The notes under the pieces: model-generated
The model's input: only the letters and a program-made list of their open reading frames with translations
Databases searched by the model: none
Told to the model about the DNA's origin: nothing
Translations under genes and position numbers: made by a program
DNA from: a virus
IMG/VR virus record: IMGVR_UViG_3300030099_003332
Coordinates: 35,540 to 61,945 of that record
Length of the DNA stretch: 26,406 nucleotides
Strand: one strand, 5' to 3'
Shown: in pieces, positions 21,851-25,380 of the stretch
Position numbering within the stretch: position 1 is the stretch's first letter
How the letters are laid out: each line of letters begins with the position of its first letter

Positions 21851-21863
21851 TTTCCGCTAAAAC

Positions 21864-21907
21864 ATGACAATAGGCCCTTACTTTTATATATATGAGGCTA
21901 ATGTCAC
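21864..21907. other. Conserved stem-loop element, copy 1
   Basis: TGACAATAGG at the left and CTAATGTCA at the right form an imperfect stem (TGACA/TGTCA plus AGCC-type pairs with a bulge). The ~20-nt loop contains TTACTTTTATA. T-runs lie on the right (21910-21915) and A-rich sequence on the left, so it could terminate transcription in the rightward direction. It matches copy 2 at 22948-22994 in both stem and loop. Confidence 0.55.
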
Positions 21908-22183
21908 ACTTTTTTAAAAAAATTGTTAGATATTGAGGAGTACTGCGTTCCCCCCTCCCCTCGACCACACTTTTCCCCACGGAAACGCGTTTCATTTTAC
22001 CGGGGCCCCGATCTTTTTACATTTTCCTTCCATCGTTTTGGCGTTTTCCATACCCTTCGGTAGATCTTTTCGCGTTTACCCTACTATCTTCCCACTCTCC
22101 ATTTCATTTCCTTTCTACAAAGTAAACACGATCCTTCAATGATAATATATATGTTACTAAATTATAAATTAAACACATACACT
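21908..22183. promoter_or_regulatory. Divergent control region with palindromes and C/T-rich strand bias
   Basis: No convincing gene lies here. From ~21945 to 22135 the plus strand is rich in C and T, poor in G and clearly more GC-rich than its surroundings, with a CCCCCCTCCCC run at 21950-21960. Two perfect palindromes occur close together: GAAACGCGTTTC at 21982-21993 and CGGGGCCCCG at 22001-22010. The minus strand carries several G-runs that could stack. The segment separates the leftward from the rightward gene block and contains promoter copy 1. A replication origin, packaging site or non-coding RNA are all possible; none is proven. Confidence 0.45.
22116..22152 (+). promoter_or_regulatory. 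Bipartite promoter motif, copy 1
   Basis: TACAAAGTAAACAC, then 10 nt, then TGATAATATATAT. This is the first of seven copies of a rigid two-box element. It lies 31 nt upstream of the 39-aa membrane protein start at 22184. Its left box differs from the consensus (TACAAACTAAATAC) at two positions. Confidence 0.65.
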
Positions 22184-22303
22184 ATGAAAAAACAAACAAT
22201 TGAGATCTTAATCTTTACTACACTAACTGTATCATTCCTAATCTTCTCTGCAATCTGCACTTACTATGCATGGTCTACATCTGCTCACATACCAATGTGG
22301 TAA
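22184..22303 (+). CDS. Small one-TM membrane protein
   Basis: A 39-aa protein. A basic MKKQT start is followed by a membrane helix at residues ~6-30 (IEILIFTTLTVSFLIFSAIC) and a short tail ending HIPMW. An in-frame ATG at 22151 would extend it by 11 residues, but that codon lies inside promoter copy 1, so I prefer 22184. First gene of the rightward block. Possibly a membrane-acting early protein; function unknown. Confidence 0.5.
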   Translation: MKKQTIEILIFTTLTVSFLIFSAICTYYAWSTSAHIPMW

Positions 22304-22318
22304 GATCGATCTTTATTT

Positions 22319-22355
22319 TACAGATTAAATACAACTAATAACTGATAATATATAT
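22319..22355 (+). promoter_or_regulatory. Bipartite promoter motif, copy 2
   Basis: TACAGATTAAATAC, 10 nt, TGATAATATATAT. Directly after it begins a ~98-nt stretch without G or C (from 22345) leading to the start of the 63-aa gene at 22441. The 10-nt spacer is identical to that of copy 3 (AACTAATAAC). Confidence 0.7.
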
Positions 22356-22442
22356 ATAATTTAAATAAATAAAAAAAATAAAATAAATTATAAAATAATA
22401 AATAATAAAATAAATAAATATTAATTAAAAATAAATAATTAT
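22345..22442. repeat. 98-nt stretch composed only of A and T
   Basis: There is no G or C between the G at 22344 and the G of the start codon at 22443. The plus strand is A-rich, with repeated AAATAAAT units. It overlaps the right box of promoter copy 2 and forms the leader of the 63-aa gene. Such a tract melts easily and could serve as a DNA-unwinding element or a translation-enhancing leader. Confidence 0.8.
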
Positions 22443-22632
22443 GTATAAAACAAAACAAATTTCTAATAAAAAATTAAAATTAAATAATAAAACTTTAATT
22501 GGTTTCAAATATCATGATGTTTATAATAATAAACAACTCTTCAAATTAATTGAATATTCAACTCAAATAAATGGTTTAATATATTATAATATTAATGATC
22601 TACCTAAATCTATTATAAACTTTATTAAATAA
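22441..22632 (+). CDS. Hypothetical Lys/Asn/Ile-rich protein
   Basis: A 63-aa protein (MYKTKQISNKKLKLNNKTLI...). Its codons are the most AT-rich in the window, so its Lys, Asn and Ile content partly reflects base composition. Short strand-like segments (TLIGFKYHDVYNN, LIYYNINDLP) suggest a small alpha/beta fold. It is flanked by promoter copies 2 and 3, giving it its own transcription unit. No function recognised; moderately sure it is a real gene. Confidence 0.45.
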   Translation: MYKTKQISNKKLKLNNKTLIGFKYHDVYNNKQLFKLIEYSTQINGLIYYNINDLPKSIINFIK

Positions 22633-22640
22633 TTAAAAAA

Positions 22641-22677
22641 TACAAACTAAATACAACTAATAACTGATAATATATAT
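22641..22677 (+). promoter_or_regulatory. Bipartite promoter motif, copy 3
   Basis: TACAAACTAAATAC, 10 nt, TGATAATATATAT: both boxes match the consensus exactly. It begins 8 nt after the stop of the 63-aa gene and lies 30 nt upstream of the 73-aa gene start. Confidence 0.75.
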
Positions 22678-22707
22678 AAATAAATTAATAACTTAAAATT
22701 ACAAATT

Positions 22708-22929
22708 ATGTCTAAATTAACTAAAATTACAAAAAACAGATTTATTATTTCTAACTCTTTAATGGGTAAAAACTTACTAATAAGTTTTACAAACAAAAAA
22801 GGTGAGACTTATACATACAATCATGATGAAGTGTTTGCACTCAATCAAGATAGACTAATGAGTATGAATTGTTATGTGAAATATGGAAATTATACTAACT
22901 CAAATAAAATACCTACCTGGGCAAAATAA
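22708..22929 (+). CDS. Small conserved protein, paralogue of the 103-aa protein
   Basis: A 73-aa protein (MSKLTKITKNRFIISNSLMG...). It aligns along nearly its whole length with residues ~5-70 of the protein at 24339-24650. Shared positions include K-x-RF, L-x-G, F-x-NKKG, Y-x-HD, then C-x-x-KY, YT and N-x-IP. It lacks that protein's acidic C-terminal tail. The two must derive from duplication. Its fold is probably a small beta-rich domain; no known function. Promoter copy 3 drives it and a conserved hairpin follows. Confidence 0.65.
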   Translation: MSKLTKITKNRFIISNSLMGKNLLISFTNKKGETYTYNHDEVFALNQDRLMSMNCYVKYGNYTNSNKIPTWAK

Positions 22930-22947
22930 CAGGTATGTATTAAAAAT

Positions 22948-22994
22948 GTGACAATAGGGTGTTACTCTTATACTAATTAAGGGTCTAATGTCAC
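22948..22994. terminator. Conserved stem-loop element, copy 2 (bidirectional terminator-like)
   Basis: GTGACAATAG at the left pairs with CTAATGTCAC at the right (one mismatch), followed by CTTTTT (22995-23000); on the other strand CACATTTTTA follows. It could stop transcription in both directions. It matches the element at 21864-21907 in stem and in the loop block TTACTCTTATA, more than a plain terminator needs. It follows the 73-aa gene by 18 nt. Confidence 0.6.
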
Positions 22995-23018
22995 CTTTTT
23001 ACTCTGTTTTATTTCTGT

Positions 23019-23062
23019 TAGAAATAGAGAAGTGGAGTGGTATACTCTACTACTATTTTCTA
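23019..23062 (+). other. Long imperfect hairpin in leader region
   Basis: TAGAAATAG, then AGA, AGTGGAGT, loop GGTAT, ACTCTACT, A, CTATTTTCTA. This is an inner 8-bp stem (one G-T wobble) and an outer ~9-bp stem with small bulges. It lies between the conserved stem-loop and promoter copy 4 in a 214-nt gap without a gene. There is no T-run, so it could be an RNA-stability or regulatory structure. Confidence 0.4.
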
Positions 23063-23086
23063 CTAACTAATAAAACTACACCTTTT

Positions 23087-23123
23087 TACAAACTAAATAC
23101 AACTAAATATTGATAATATAAAT
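23087..23123 (+). promoter_or_regulatory. Bipartite promoter motif, copy 4
   Basis: TACAAACTAAATAC (exact left box), 10 nt, TGATAATATAAAT (one change). It lies 20 nt upstream of the 50-aa gene start at 23144. Confidence 0.72.
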
Positions 23124-23143
23124 ATAACTTAAAAATAAATATT

Positions 23144-23296
23144 ATGAATCAAGAATTTAAAATTAAAATTATTGAGTACATACAAGAAAATGTAGGTACT
23201 TACAATGAAGATCTATGTGAAGATAAATATATGGAAGATGTACTAGATCTTGTTTATGAAGAATTAAAAGATGAATTAATTACCAAACAACAGTAA
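23144..23296 (+). CDS. Hypothetical acidic 50-aa protein
   Basis: MNQEFKIKIIEYIQENVGTY, then NEDLCEDKYMEDVLDLVYEE and a LKDEL helix. A strongly acidic, helical small protein. It starts 20 nt after promoter copy 4 and is followed 3 nt later by another 50-aa gene, so the two are cotranscribed. No recognised family. Its acidity would suit a DNA-mimic or enzyme-inhibitor protein, but that is speculation. Confidence 0.55.
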   Translation: MNQEFKIKIIEYIQENVGTYNEDLCEDKYMEDVLDLVYEELKDELITKQQ

Positions 23297-23299
23297 AAT

Positions 23300-23452
23300 A
23301 TGGAAAAAGAAATTACTATAAAAATAGATGAAGATAATGATATCTATGAGTTAACAGTGAATGGTGAAATATATACACTTGACAATGTTTATGAAAGTGA
23401 ATATGGAGATCTTTGGGATGAGTTAAACATGAGTATTGAAATTACAAACTAA
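23300..23452 (+). CDS. Hypothetical acidic 50-aa protein
   Basis: MEKEITIKIDEDNDIYELTV, then NGEIYTLDNVYESEYGDLWD. Acidic, with beta-strand-like repeats of hydrophobic and acidic residues. Its last codons (ITN stop) lie inside the left box of promoter copy 5, so coding sequence and promoter are shared. It begins 3 nt after the stop of the previous 50-aa gene. Function unknown. Confidence 0.55.
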   Translation: MEKEITIKIDEDNDIYELTVNGEIYTLDNVYESEYGDLWDELNMSIEITN

Positions 23453-23479
23453 ATACTGATGAGTGAAGATAATATATAT
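23443..23479 (+). promoter_or_regulatory. Bipartite promoter motif, copy 5
   Basis: TACAAACTAAATAC, 10 nt, AGATAATATATAT. The left box contains the stop codon of the preceding gene. The next gene starts at 23502, 22 nt after the right box. Confidence 0.7.
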
Positions 23480-23501
23480 GTAAATATTAAAAATTAAACT
23501 T

Positions 23502-23771
23502 ATGACTTATACTGAACACTATTTAACTAATTTATTAAAAAAACTTGAACAACCTTATTTGGTATTTAATGACAAACTATTTATAATACCTACTAGTTCA
23601 CCTATGTTTGAACTACTACCTGGTGAAGTATGTAGACATATTGAGTTTAAAATACCTGGTAAAGAATATTTTGAAAATTACACATTTTTAATACTCGATG
23701 TAAATACTTATAAAATAGATCCAGTGAAAGATACTTATGAATATATTAAAGAAAATGAAGATAAAATCTAA
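23502..23771 (+). CDS. Hypothetical 89-aa protein
   Basis: MTYTEHYLTNLLKKLEQPYL begins with an amphipathic helix. It is followed by beta-like segments (VFNDKLFIIPTSSPMFELLP, then CRHIEFKIPG and YFENYTFLILDV) and an acidic helical end. The mixed alpha/beta pattern suggests a globular domain. It follows promoter copy 5 and precedes the 38-aa basic gene by 4 nt. No known family recognised. Confidence 0.6.
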   Translation: MTYTEHYLTNLLKKLEQPYLVFNDKLFIIPTSSPMFELLPGEVCRHIEFKIPGKEYFENYTFLILDVNTYKIDPVKDTYEYIKENEDKI

Positions 23772-23775
23772 AATT

Positions 23776-23892
23776 ATGAAAACAATAGTAGTAACTCAAA
23801 GAGAAATTCAAGAGGCGATGAAAAGAAGTGTGTTTAGGAACAAGAAAAAATACACTAGAAAAGATAAACATAAAAATAGGAGATATGAGTGA
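23776..23892 (+). CDS. Small very basic protein
   Basis: A 38-aa protein (MKTIVVTQREIQEAMKRSVF then RNKKKYTRKDKHKNRRYE). The C-terminal half is Lys/Arg-rich and could bind nucleic acid. The stop overlaps the next start (ATGAGTGA, 8-nt overlap), indicating coupled translation, and an AGGAG inside this gene could serve as a ribosome site for the next. Function unknown. Confidence 0.5.
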   Translation: MKTIVVTQREIQEAMKRSVFRNKKKYTRKDKHKNRRYE

Positions 23893-24052
23893 TGAGAAGT
23901 ATGATCTACATGTCGAGGCAGTAGAATTAATGAAAAAATTAGATAAAAAATATAATAGAGAAACTATTATGTCACTTGATGAATACTTCTGTGAGTATGA
24001 ATTTACTGATGAAGAATATGATGAGATATATAGTTTATTAAAAAGATTTTAA
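23885..24052 (+). CDS. Hypothetical acidic 55-aa protein
   Basis: MSDEKYDLHVEAVELMKKLD, then KKYNRETIMSLDEYFCEYEF and DEEYDEIYSLLKRF. I use the ATG at 23885, which has AGGAG four bases upstream and overlaps the preceding stop, rather than the GTG at 23828 in the same frame, which would duplicate the coding space of the 38-aa gene. Acidic and helical. Unknown function; pairs with the basic gene before it. Confidence 0.55.
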   Translation: MSDEKYDLHVEAVELMKKLDKKYNRETIMSLDEYFCEYEFTDEEYDEIYSLLKRF

Positions 24053-24062
24053 AATGAATATT

Positions 24063-24099
24063 TACAATCTAAATACGAAAAGTGAATGATAATATATAT
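24063..24099 (+). promoter_or_regulatory. Bipartite promoter motif, copy 6 (abuts a start codon)
   Basis: TACAATCTAAATAC, 10 nt, TGATAATATATAT. The next base begins the ATG of the 75-aa gene at 24100, with no leader. A transcript starting at or just after the right box would be leaderless. Confidence 0.7.
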
Positions 24100-24327
24100 A
24101 TGAAAAGTTACAAAAAATATAATATAAAATTTGCTTTATCAATAGCAAAATGGAACAACTTATTTTTATATAAAGATAATTTATATGAAAGATTATATAA
24201 TCACCCTTATCAAGAACAATATAGAGTGTTTATTGGTAATGACTATGATTATATTGAAGATCAAGAATTAATAGAAGAATTAAACAACTACCCACTTTGG
24301 GAGTTTAAAAGTATGAATAATAATTAA
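24100..24327 (+). CDS. Hypothetical aromatic-rich 75-aa protein
   Basis: MKSYKKYNIKFALSIAKWNN begins with a basic amphipathic stretch. A Tyr/Asn/Asp-rich body follows (NLYERLYNHPYQEQYRVFIG) and an acidic C-terminal helix (DQELIEELNNYPLWEF). I chose the ATG at 24100, directly after promoter copy 6. An in-frame GTG at 24082 lies inside the promoter and is unlikely. It is followed 11 nt later by the 103-aa gene. Unknown function; possibly leaderless. Confidence 0.55.
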   Translation: MKSYKKYNIKFALSIAKWNNLFLYKDNLYERLYNHPYQEQYRVFIGNDYDYIEDQELIEELNNYPLWEFKSMNNN

Positions 24328-24338
24328 AATCTAATAAA

Positions 24339-24650
24339 ATGGAAACATTAAAAAGTAAAAGGTTCGTCCTAAGAAAGACCTTAATAGGACAAGGAGTTGT
24401 AGTGGAATTTGAGAACAAAAAAGGTGATTCTATAAAGTATGATCACGATGCAGCGTTCTCAGTGATGGAACCAATTCTTAACGAGTTACCTTGTTGGGAA
24501 AAGTACAAGTCGTACACCGCGACTAACAACATACCAAAAGTGTTGAGAGACACCGCTGCGGTAGTTGAAGTAATTCTAAATACTAATGATCAGGTTGAAG
24601 AAACTGAAGAAGTAACTGAAACTGAAGAAGTTGAAGAATTTGCTGTATAA
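24339..24650 (+). CDS. Small conserved protein with acidic tail, paralogue of the 73-aa protein
   Basis: A 103-aa protein. Residues ~5-70 align with the 73-aa protein at 22708-22929 (shared RF, L-x-G, F-x-NKKG, Y-x-HD, C-x-x-KY, YT, N-x-IP). Residues ~84-103 are an added acidic tail of repeated Glu-Thr/Glu-Val units (VEETEEVTETEEVEEFAV). Codons here are less AT-biased than those of the 73-aa copy, so this may be the more highly expressed copy or of different age. Probably a small beta domain; unknown role. Confidence 0.65.
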   Translation: METLKSKRFVLRKTLIGQGVVVEFENKKGDSIKYDHDAAFSVMEPILNELPCWEKYKSYTATNNIPKVLRDTAAVVEVILNTNDQVEETEEVTETEEVEEFAV

Positions 24651-24659
24651 GCTGAGATA

Positions 24660-24722
24660 ATGAGAAAATACACATCTCGAGTGGGTTGTAACCACTCCTC
24701 AGTTCTAAAATATAAAATATGA
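24660..24722 (+). CDS. Possible 20-aa leader peptide
   Basis: MRKYTSRVGCNHSSVLKYKI. It starts 9 nt after the stop of the 103-aa gene and ends in an ATGA overlap with the next gene start at 24719. It fills the gap exactly. A stem of GAGTGG with CCACTC at 24679-24697 lies inside it. It may be a short coupling peptide, but an ORF this small can arise by chance. Confidence 0.2.
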   Translation: MRKYTSRVGCNHSSVLKYKI

Positions 24723-24871
24723 AAAATTACACAGAAAAAACCATTTCAGTGTCTAAAAATGGTAAAATGAAACAAGTGGTTAGACACACTGTAGTTAAAC
24801 GAGTTAAAAACCGTAAAGGTGAGCCTTGTGTGTTCTCACAAACTTTACACTTAAAAAATAAAGAAAAATGA
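24719..24871 (+). CDS. Hypothetical basic 50-aa protein
   Basis: MKNYTEKTISVSKNGKMKQV, then VRHTVVKRVKNRKGEPCVFS and QTLHLKNKEK. A basic, beta-strand-like small protein with alternating Val/Thr and Lys/Arg, possibly nucleic-acid binding. The stop overlaps the next start as ATGA. No recognised family. Confidence 0.55.
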   Translation: MKNYTEKTISVSKNGKMKQVVRHTVVKRVKNRKGEPCVFSQTLHLKNKEK

Positions 24872-25119
24872 GTGACAAGTTTAATGTAAAAATGACAGTA
24901 GTATTATCAGAGATACCTGTTAAAGTTGATGTAGATGTAGATAAAGTGATCTGGTTAAACGGTGGGGATCTTGAAAGATCTATTGCACTGCAGATCGCTT
25001 TACATGAAAAATACCCTACAGCAATGGAAATCGCAGAAAACAACAACGAAAGGTATCAACGAGTTAGTTATATAGATCCAGAAACTATAAAAGTATATGA
25101 TGATGGTTTCTTATTGTAA
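24868..25119 (+). CDS. Hypothetical 83-aa protein
   Basis: MSDKFNVKMTVVLSEIPVKV with Val-rich strands, then DVDVDKVIWLNGGDLERSIA and a helix LQIALHEKYPTAMEIAENNN, ending IDPETIKVYDDGFLL. Alternating strand and helix suggest a small alpha/beta domain. It is translationally coupled to the upstream basic protein and followed 2 nt later by promoter copy 7. Unknown function. Confidence 0.6.
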   Translation: MSDKFNVKMTVVLSEIPVKVDVDVDKVIWLNGGDLERSIALQIALHEKYPTAMEIAENNNERYQRVSYIDPETIKVYDDGFLL

Positions 25120-25121
25120 TT

Positions 25122-25158
25122 TACAAACTAAATACGATTAGTAAATGATAATATATAT
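25122..25158 (+). promoter_or_regulatory. Bipartite promoter motif, copy 7
   Basis: TACAAACTAAATAC, 10 nt, TGATAATATATAT: both boxes match the consensus exactly. It begins 2 nt after the preceding stop codon and lies 12 nt upstream of the zinc-ribbon gene at 25171, leaving a very short leader. Confidence 0.75.
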
Positions 25159-25170
25159 AAATTAAATATT

Positions 25171-25380
25171 ATGAAATGTAAATGCGGAGATATTATACCT
25201 CAAGGTAGGTTAGATTTAGGTTACAAAGTTTGTGTTAACTGCTCAACTGTACAGCGTTACGGTTGTGCACCAGTTATTAATCACAAAACAGGTAACAGTA
25301 TACAAATATTGTCAAGCGAAGATGCTGCAGCAATAGCTAAATTAACTCGCCGTAAAGGTTACGGTACAATGTTAAAATAA
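25171..25380 (+). CDS. Small zinc-ribbon-like protein
   Basis: A 69-aa protein. MKCKCGDIIPQGRLDLGYKV then CVNCS gives C3-x-C5 and C21-x2-C24, a compact zinc-ribbon arrangement with an intervening Gly-rich beta hairpin. The rest (APVINHKTGNSIQILSSEDA, then AAIAKLTRRKGYGTMLK) is a strand-helix unit with a basic end. Such small zinc proteins in phages often bind nucleic acid or host RNA polymerase, but a specific role is not evident. First gene after promoter copy 7. Confidence 0.65.
   Translation: MKCKCGDIIPQGRLDLGYKVCVNCSTVQRYGCAPVINHKTGNSIQILSSEDAAAIAKLTRRKGYGTMLK

Follow-up and report, generated by a model that had tools for sequence, protein, structure and literature searches.

Repeated 37-bp elements as a probable early-gene promoter class of crAss-related marine podoviruses

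Seven copies of a two-part, promoter-like motif stand before small genes in a 26,406-nucleotide (nt) stretch of viral DNA, and the locus raises the question of whether a phage starts transcription from them and, if so, which protein reads them. The stretch, hereafter the window (G000:C1:35540-61945), is the right end of the 61,945-bp IMG/VR virus record IMGVR_UViG_3300030099_003332 (G000). An earlier note, made from the letters of the window, had proposed that the copies are promoters served by a phage RNA polymerase (RNAP), by a phage sigma factor or activator, or by a modified host polymerase. By our analysis, the motif is very probably a promoter, placed before the early genes in a large group of uncultured ocean phages. 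Regarding the reader, we think it probable that in a large clade of crAss-related marine podoviruses this 37-bp element serves as the early-gene promoter and that one or more phage proteins of the sigma family steer the host RNAP core to it.

The element, its spacing and its predicted start site

All seven copies lie where the note had placed them (Table 1), with zero to two mismatches and on the plus strand only. Each of the seven precedes a rightward open reading frame (ORF), and the 10 nt between the boxes, as these were then defined, are exact in 7/7 copies. The motif matched nowhere in 100 dinucleotide shuffles, so the chance expectation is none. Searching the rest of the genome, as the note had advised, brought to light two further plus-strand copies, at G000:1778 and G000:3996; the former, outside the window, is of the leaderless type seen in window copy 6. 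The minus strand of the 61,945-bp record holds no copy.

An exact-pattern scan of IMG/VR returned at least 118 stretches, and 181 distinct copies among the matches listed gave the consensus TACAAACTAAATACGA-N8-(G/A)GATAATATA..T(A/G), whose conserved part is slightly longer than the note had described. We also gathered 224 related IMG/VR loci by searching outward from the sigma gene presented below. These contained 1,052 sense and 13 antisense sites, an outcome that favors the promoter reading in the very comparison, relatives and both orientations, that the note had put forward as its check. At least three sites were found in 110 of the 113 loci having at least 9 kb of upstream DNA. In two of the others, L469 and L479, there are 5-6 sites, which have the left box CACGGACTT at the same distance to GATAAT, and the last one, L270, has a few looser sites; in L290 and L291, with shorter upstream DNA, no motif sites were seen. 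With left boxes modeled per locus, the spacing was identical in 952 out of 957 box pairs. The right box hardly varies (all 10 sites of L278 have GATATT, not GATAAT), and the left box, at unchanged spacing, belongs to one of several classes that hold throughout a genome: A, TACAAACTAAATACGA; B, CACGGACTT; C, AAAAAGGTTGACACGA; D, TATAAGTTTGACACGA; and others.

The start codons give the motif a register. Among 695 sites with a downstream ORF, the first ATG falls exactly on motif position 38 in 153 (22%), compared with one site at the next base, two at the base before and 16 at two bases on. Position 38 is moreover a purine in 180 of 181 copies among the matches listed. Transcription starting at position 38 best explains both the ATG register and the purine. 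Because the ATG is locked on this position, we placed the predicted +1 there, and many of the mRNAs are consequently predicted to be leaderless. The element, strand, spacing and start-codon register are direct readings of the DNA; transcription and its exact start are what we infer from them.

Relative to this +1, GATAAT (motif positions 26-31) covers -12 to -7 and brings an A to -11 and a T to -7, which is the geometry of a sigma70-type -10 element and bears out the likeness to a -10 box that the note had seen. The left box spans -37 to -22, about 16 bp. It contains no TTGACA-like -35 at 16-18 bp upstream of the -10 (the main class has ACAAACT at positions 2-8), and the motif lacks the TTG and TAnnTTTG elements of Bacteroidota sigmaA promoters. 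The note was thus right to set the left box apart from the -35 of sigma-70 and from the -33/-7 pattern of Bacteroidota; the motif-bearing phages show no sense-direction enrichment of the host type, TTG-N-TAnnTTTG, on their early strand.

A replication iteron, a recombination site or an RNA element could also be repeated, rigidly spaced, AT-rich and limited to one genome block, as this motif is. Such a non-promoter reading is scarcely credible, as the copies stand in sense orientation before genes, the ATG is locked at position 38 and the leaders vary from 0 to more than 80 nt; an Rfam search gave no match. The claim that the phage uses these sites as promoters gains from the strand bias, the place before early genes and the locked ATG, and keeps the standing of a prediction.

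Outside the phages the motif is rare: the cellular genome collection yielded ten matching stretches only, several of which are evidently phage contigs with many copies. Single copies occur in apparent bacterial chromosomes of marine Flavobacteriales, at L370:3474-3507 (-), L371:5332-5365 (+) and L374:323-356 (+). The first has a 204-aa (amino acid) gene at offset 0 and an integrase gene nearby, the second is followed by an ORF at the contig end, and the third by a TerB-domain gene; these genes could be phage-derived or switched on by infection. On a contig filed as Prochlorococcus (L372:3098-3131, -), a full-consensus motif precedes a gene that shares 38% identity with an early gene of G000. 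The assembly holding this contig has no match to the G000 terminase, and the promoter was apparently transferred along with the gene.

A phage sigma factor and other candidate readers

G000:6670-7428 encodes a divergent protein of 252 aa, in which sigma region 2 is followed by region 4. It matches PHROG_351 (E=4e-15) and SigA chains in the PDB, and sigma chains top the list in a fold search with its model, in which the domain arrangement is of low confidence (predicted template modeling score, pTM, 0.47); Pfam Sigma70_r2 alone scored under its cut-off. Judged by the PHROG, PDB and fold matches, the protein is a genuine sigma. The start of its gene overlaps the end of the gene for a 211-aa protein with a C-terminal helix-turn-helix (HTH), the rest of which gave no confident fold match. 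The sigma gene is present in 34 of 41 motif-bearing records, including 20/20 of those of at least 55 kb. Six named relatives (elemovirus, Pachyviridae, Pervagoviridae) are without the sigma by its family profile, without the motif and without a convincing HTH homologue; PHROG_351 touches one of the six, Gundel_1, over a short stretch. The sigma-less elemovirus carries nine TTTG-N-TAnnTTTG promoters on its early strand, against 1.75 expected. That sister phage thus has the two-part type of the Bacteroidota, the presumed host phylum, and our motif, although also two-part, matches it in neither box.

In the mechanism that we favor, the host RNAP core would be directed by phage-encoded sigma-family protein(s), the prime suspect being the 252-aa sigma of the HTH-sigma operon. 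A factor of the sigma70 family would melt GATAAT, the left box with its rigid spacing would stand in for a -35 element, and transcription would begin at position 38. Since the sigma gene lies downstream of the promoters, the sigma, once made, would reinforce its own expression; the first round would presumably be left to basal host activity or to a factor brought by the virion. The co-occurrence with a sigma gene is itself an observation, and the pairing of proteins with boxes, like the first round, is our proposal. A precedent exists in phage promoters of the SPO1 gp28 type, which host RNAP reads with a phage sigma. The likeness lies in a phage sigma70-family gene and a two-box promoter on many phage genes, unlike the host consensus. 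Here, however, the left box is much longer (about 16 bp), the spacing is nearly invariant, the start is often on the ATG, and sigma binding is a prediction. For the phage sigma factor among the readers that the note had listed, the gene content of G000 and its motif-bearing relatives and the sigma70-type right box speak in favor; for the left box the sigma is a candidate reader.

Several observations weigh against this mechanism. The first round of the predicted transcription would go unexplained if newly made sigma were the sole reader. The co-occurrence of sigma and motif may reflect shared ancestry alone, and the HTH protein co-occurs with the motif equally well. Residue-level co-variation between sigma and motif did not rise above that of control proteins. 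In a first sample, regional distance tests had favored two pairings, right box with sigma region 2.4 and left box with region 4.2. Control proteins performed equally well when 98 loci were compared, and we therefore do not take these tests as proof. Further, L503 and L504 (class C) share their recognition helix with the class-A L246 and differ from it in the left box, so that sigma region 4.2 alone does not decide the left box, and class-B genomes retain the 252-aa sigma despite their different left box.

Could the left box instead be bound by a phage activator, such as the HTH protein coupled to the sigma or another early protein, with host RNAP and a host sigma on the right box? A long, changeable left box beside a constant -10 does resemble activator-dependent promoters, and the HTH protein is co-conserved with the motif and has no convincing counterpart in the named relatives. 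In T4 MotA middle promoters the -35 is replaced by an activator, and they too combine a conserved -10 with a non-canonical upstream box. In our phages, unlike T4, the spacing is fixed clade-wide, the upstream box changes genome-wide and the activator is hypothetical. Moreover, GATAAT is not the Bacteroidota -7 element, the motif is nearly absent from host genomes, and the HTH protein has a likely target of its own, the palindrome over its start codon, and distances that do not track the left box (0.11). Overall, we regard such an activator as improbable.

Rigid spacing would also suit a phage RNAP of an unrecognized kind. Virion RNAPs are known from N4 and from crAss-like phages, among them phi14:2, and the present case resembles these in concerning early-gene transcription in a related phage group and in the giant protein that ends the virion block. 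Contrary to this idea, the layout relative to +1 is sigma70-like and without a hairpin, and no RNAP family match or catalytic signature was found in the giant and the other large proteins tested. RNAPs of the T7, N4 and crAss types were accordingly rejected for these proteins, and the phage polymerase that the note had listed among its readers found no candidate there. A T7-type Pfam scan of the genome itself carries no weight, as it gave no match in any control genome. We consider a phage RNAP very improbable as the reader.

Left-box classes and the giant virion protein

The giant protein of G000 (3,810 aa; G000:17805-29234, -) lies at the end of the virion block, outside the window, and has a zeta-toxin/polynucleotide-kinase-like NTPase domain; the giants of relatives are mosaic and have mainly their C-terminal part in common. 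Presumably ejected with the DNA, such a protein might act through a sigma-like domain, binding host RNAP and recognizing the left box at time zero, and leave the 252-aa sigma to act later or on the right box only. This possibility, which would account for the first round of transcription, is unlikely in our view, although we retain it as a rival. Slightly more doubtful is the statement that the giant is a packaged sigma reading the left box, such that a new virion module would force a change of all early left boxes in a genome.

The idea draws on a distance comparison of 34 protein families in 16 whole records (15 plus G000), in which the giant's distances track the left box best (0.60, versus 0.08 for the sigma and 0.11 for the HTH protein). 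This signal comes mainly from class B, dropping to 0.33 and rank 8 without it, and the records behind it are related by descent. A 550-aa region of the class-B giant, picked as common to class-B giants and not to most others, was detected in six of 50 records, namely G051-G054 (class B, used to define the region), G066 and G067, and in none of the other 44. G066 is L276, with two CACGGA sites, whose class-B site had been seen before the giant was examined; G067 is L269, which enters the comparison without its promoter region. We do not use a Fisher value for region against class, which overstates the evidence, as the records are related by descent and the class of non-B records was tabulated by hand. 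One record, G053, has early genes nearest to class A/D genomes, yet its portal and giant are of class B.

The best PHROG match of the 550-aa region is RNA polymerase sigma factor (E=0.0023), and Pfam Sigma70_r2 is weakly touched by one class-B copy (E=0.069) and by the class-A counterpart in G063 (E=0.0067). This resemblance is, however, under curated cut-offs and absent in the other class-B copies scanned, and a profile comparison of the giant region with the 252-aa sigma (hhalign) was not significant. Class-A giants are alike only in their C-terminal part, though the class-A left box is constant; conversely, G057 (class D) and G000 (class A) have the relevant giant region in common, yet their left boxes differ. 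Ejection of the giant is, besides, an assumption. Steering of the host core by phage sigma-family protein(s) in general is the reading that we retain.

Only three phages, all of class B, carry a second sigma in their early region (L469:7985-8506, L474:7994-8515 and L273:7847-8437); it is of the extracytoplasmic function (ECF) type, with Pfam Sigma70_r2 and r4 above cut-off. It was rejected as reader of the class-B box, being missing in the class-B phages G052/L479 and L276.

Genome context and meaning of the probable promoter class

By its protein sequences, G000 is a crAss-related podovirus. Its terminase and portal, along with other virion proteins, match protein families from podoviruses of Flavobacterium, Cellulophaga and Tenacibaculum, and one virion protein matches crAss_MUZ_C. 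The closest GenBank record by terminase is MW202828 (63.5% identity), and blastn against GenBank phages recovered no DNA relatives. The minus strand carries a long block of virion and late genes. The plus strand holds small AT-rich genes from the motif cluster on, followed by ligase, HTH protein, sigma, ERF, nuclease, primase-helicase, thymidylate synthase and ribonucleotide reductase; we label these genes early by their content and position. From the gene order, and from relatives with motif cluster and sigma gene on one contig, we infer that the ends of the linear record join. In a search for a late promoter, no repeated motif was found on the late strand.

A 45-49 bp palindrome overlaps the HTH gene start in 167 of 212 loci, and 97 of 126 loci have a second copy, whose median distance upstream is 6.9 kb. 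It is likely to be an operator of the HTH protein, or else to form a hairpin across the start codon. Window positions 21930-22110, which lie between the late and early blocks, differ from the rest of the window (34% GC) in showing plus-strand C runs, a pyrimidine-rich stretch and GGGGCCCC. The early ORFs 22708-22929 and 24339-24650 look alike (K.RF..R.SL.G....F.NKKG), and ORFs of this type adjoin the motif in several related loci.

Table 1. Promoter copies and palindromes, in window positions unless prefixed G000. Leader, nt from the predicted +1 (motif position 38) to the ATG.
Feature	Position	Strand	Leader (nt)	Remarks
Promoter copy 1	22116..22152	+	31	predicted +1 22153; ORF ATG 22184
Promoter copy 2	22319..22355	+	85	predicted +1 22356; ORF 22441-22632; leader AT-rich
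Promoter copy 3	22641..22677	+	30	exact consensus; ORF 22708-22929
Promoter copy 4	23087..23123	+	20	ORF 23144-23296
Promoter copy 5	23443..23479	+	22	TAA stop of upstream ORF 23300-23452 inside left box; ORF 23502-23771
Promoter copy 6	24063..24099	+	0	ATG 24100 on the predicted +1; leaderless mRNA predicted
Promoter copy 7	25122..25158	+	12	exact consensus; ORF 25171-25380
Palindrome copy, TGTGACANTAGGCC-type arms, 45-49 bp	21863..21908			between late and early blocks; probable operator
Second palindrome copy	22947..22995			between early genes
Palindrome copy over start codon of HTH-sigma operon	G000:6016-6060			

Taken together, the motif most likely represents a widespread early promoter class with a sigma70-like core and an unusual left box, at which host RNAP would act together with one or more phage factors of the sigma family. 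We found no earlier description of it in the open-access literature searched, subscription papers being outside that scope. For an abundant clade of uncultured marine phages, presumed to infect Bacteroidota, this provides a promoter map drawn from sequence alone, one that includes the predicted +1 of the early promoters along with a dedicated sigma gene and a candidate operator. The findings suggest that these phages swap the unusual promoter of their hosts for a sigma70-like one of their own, and that their early mRNAs are often leaderless. The coordinated change of all left boxes within a genome, in turn, amounts to a natural experiment on the identity of the promoter's reader.

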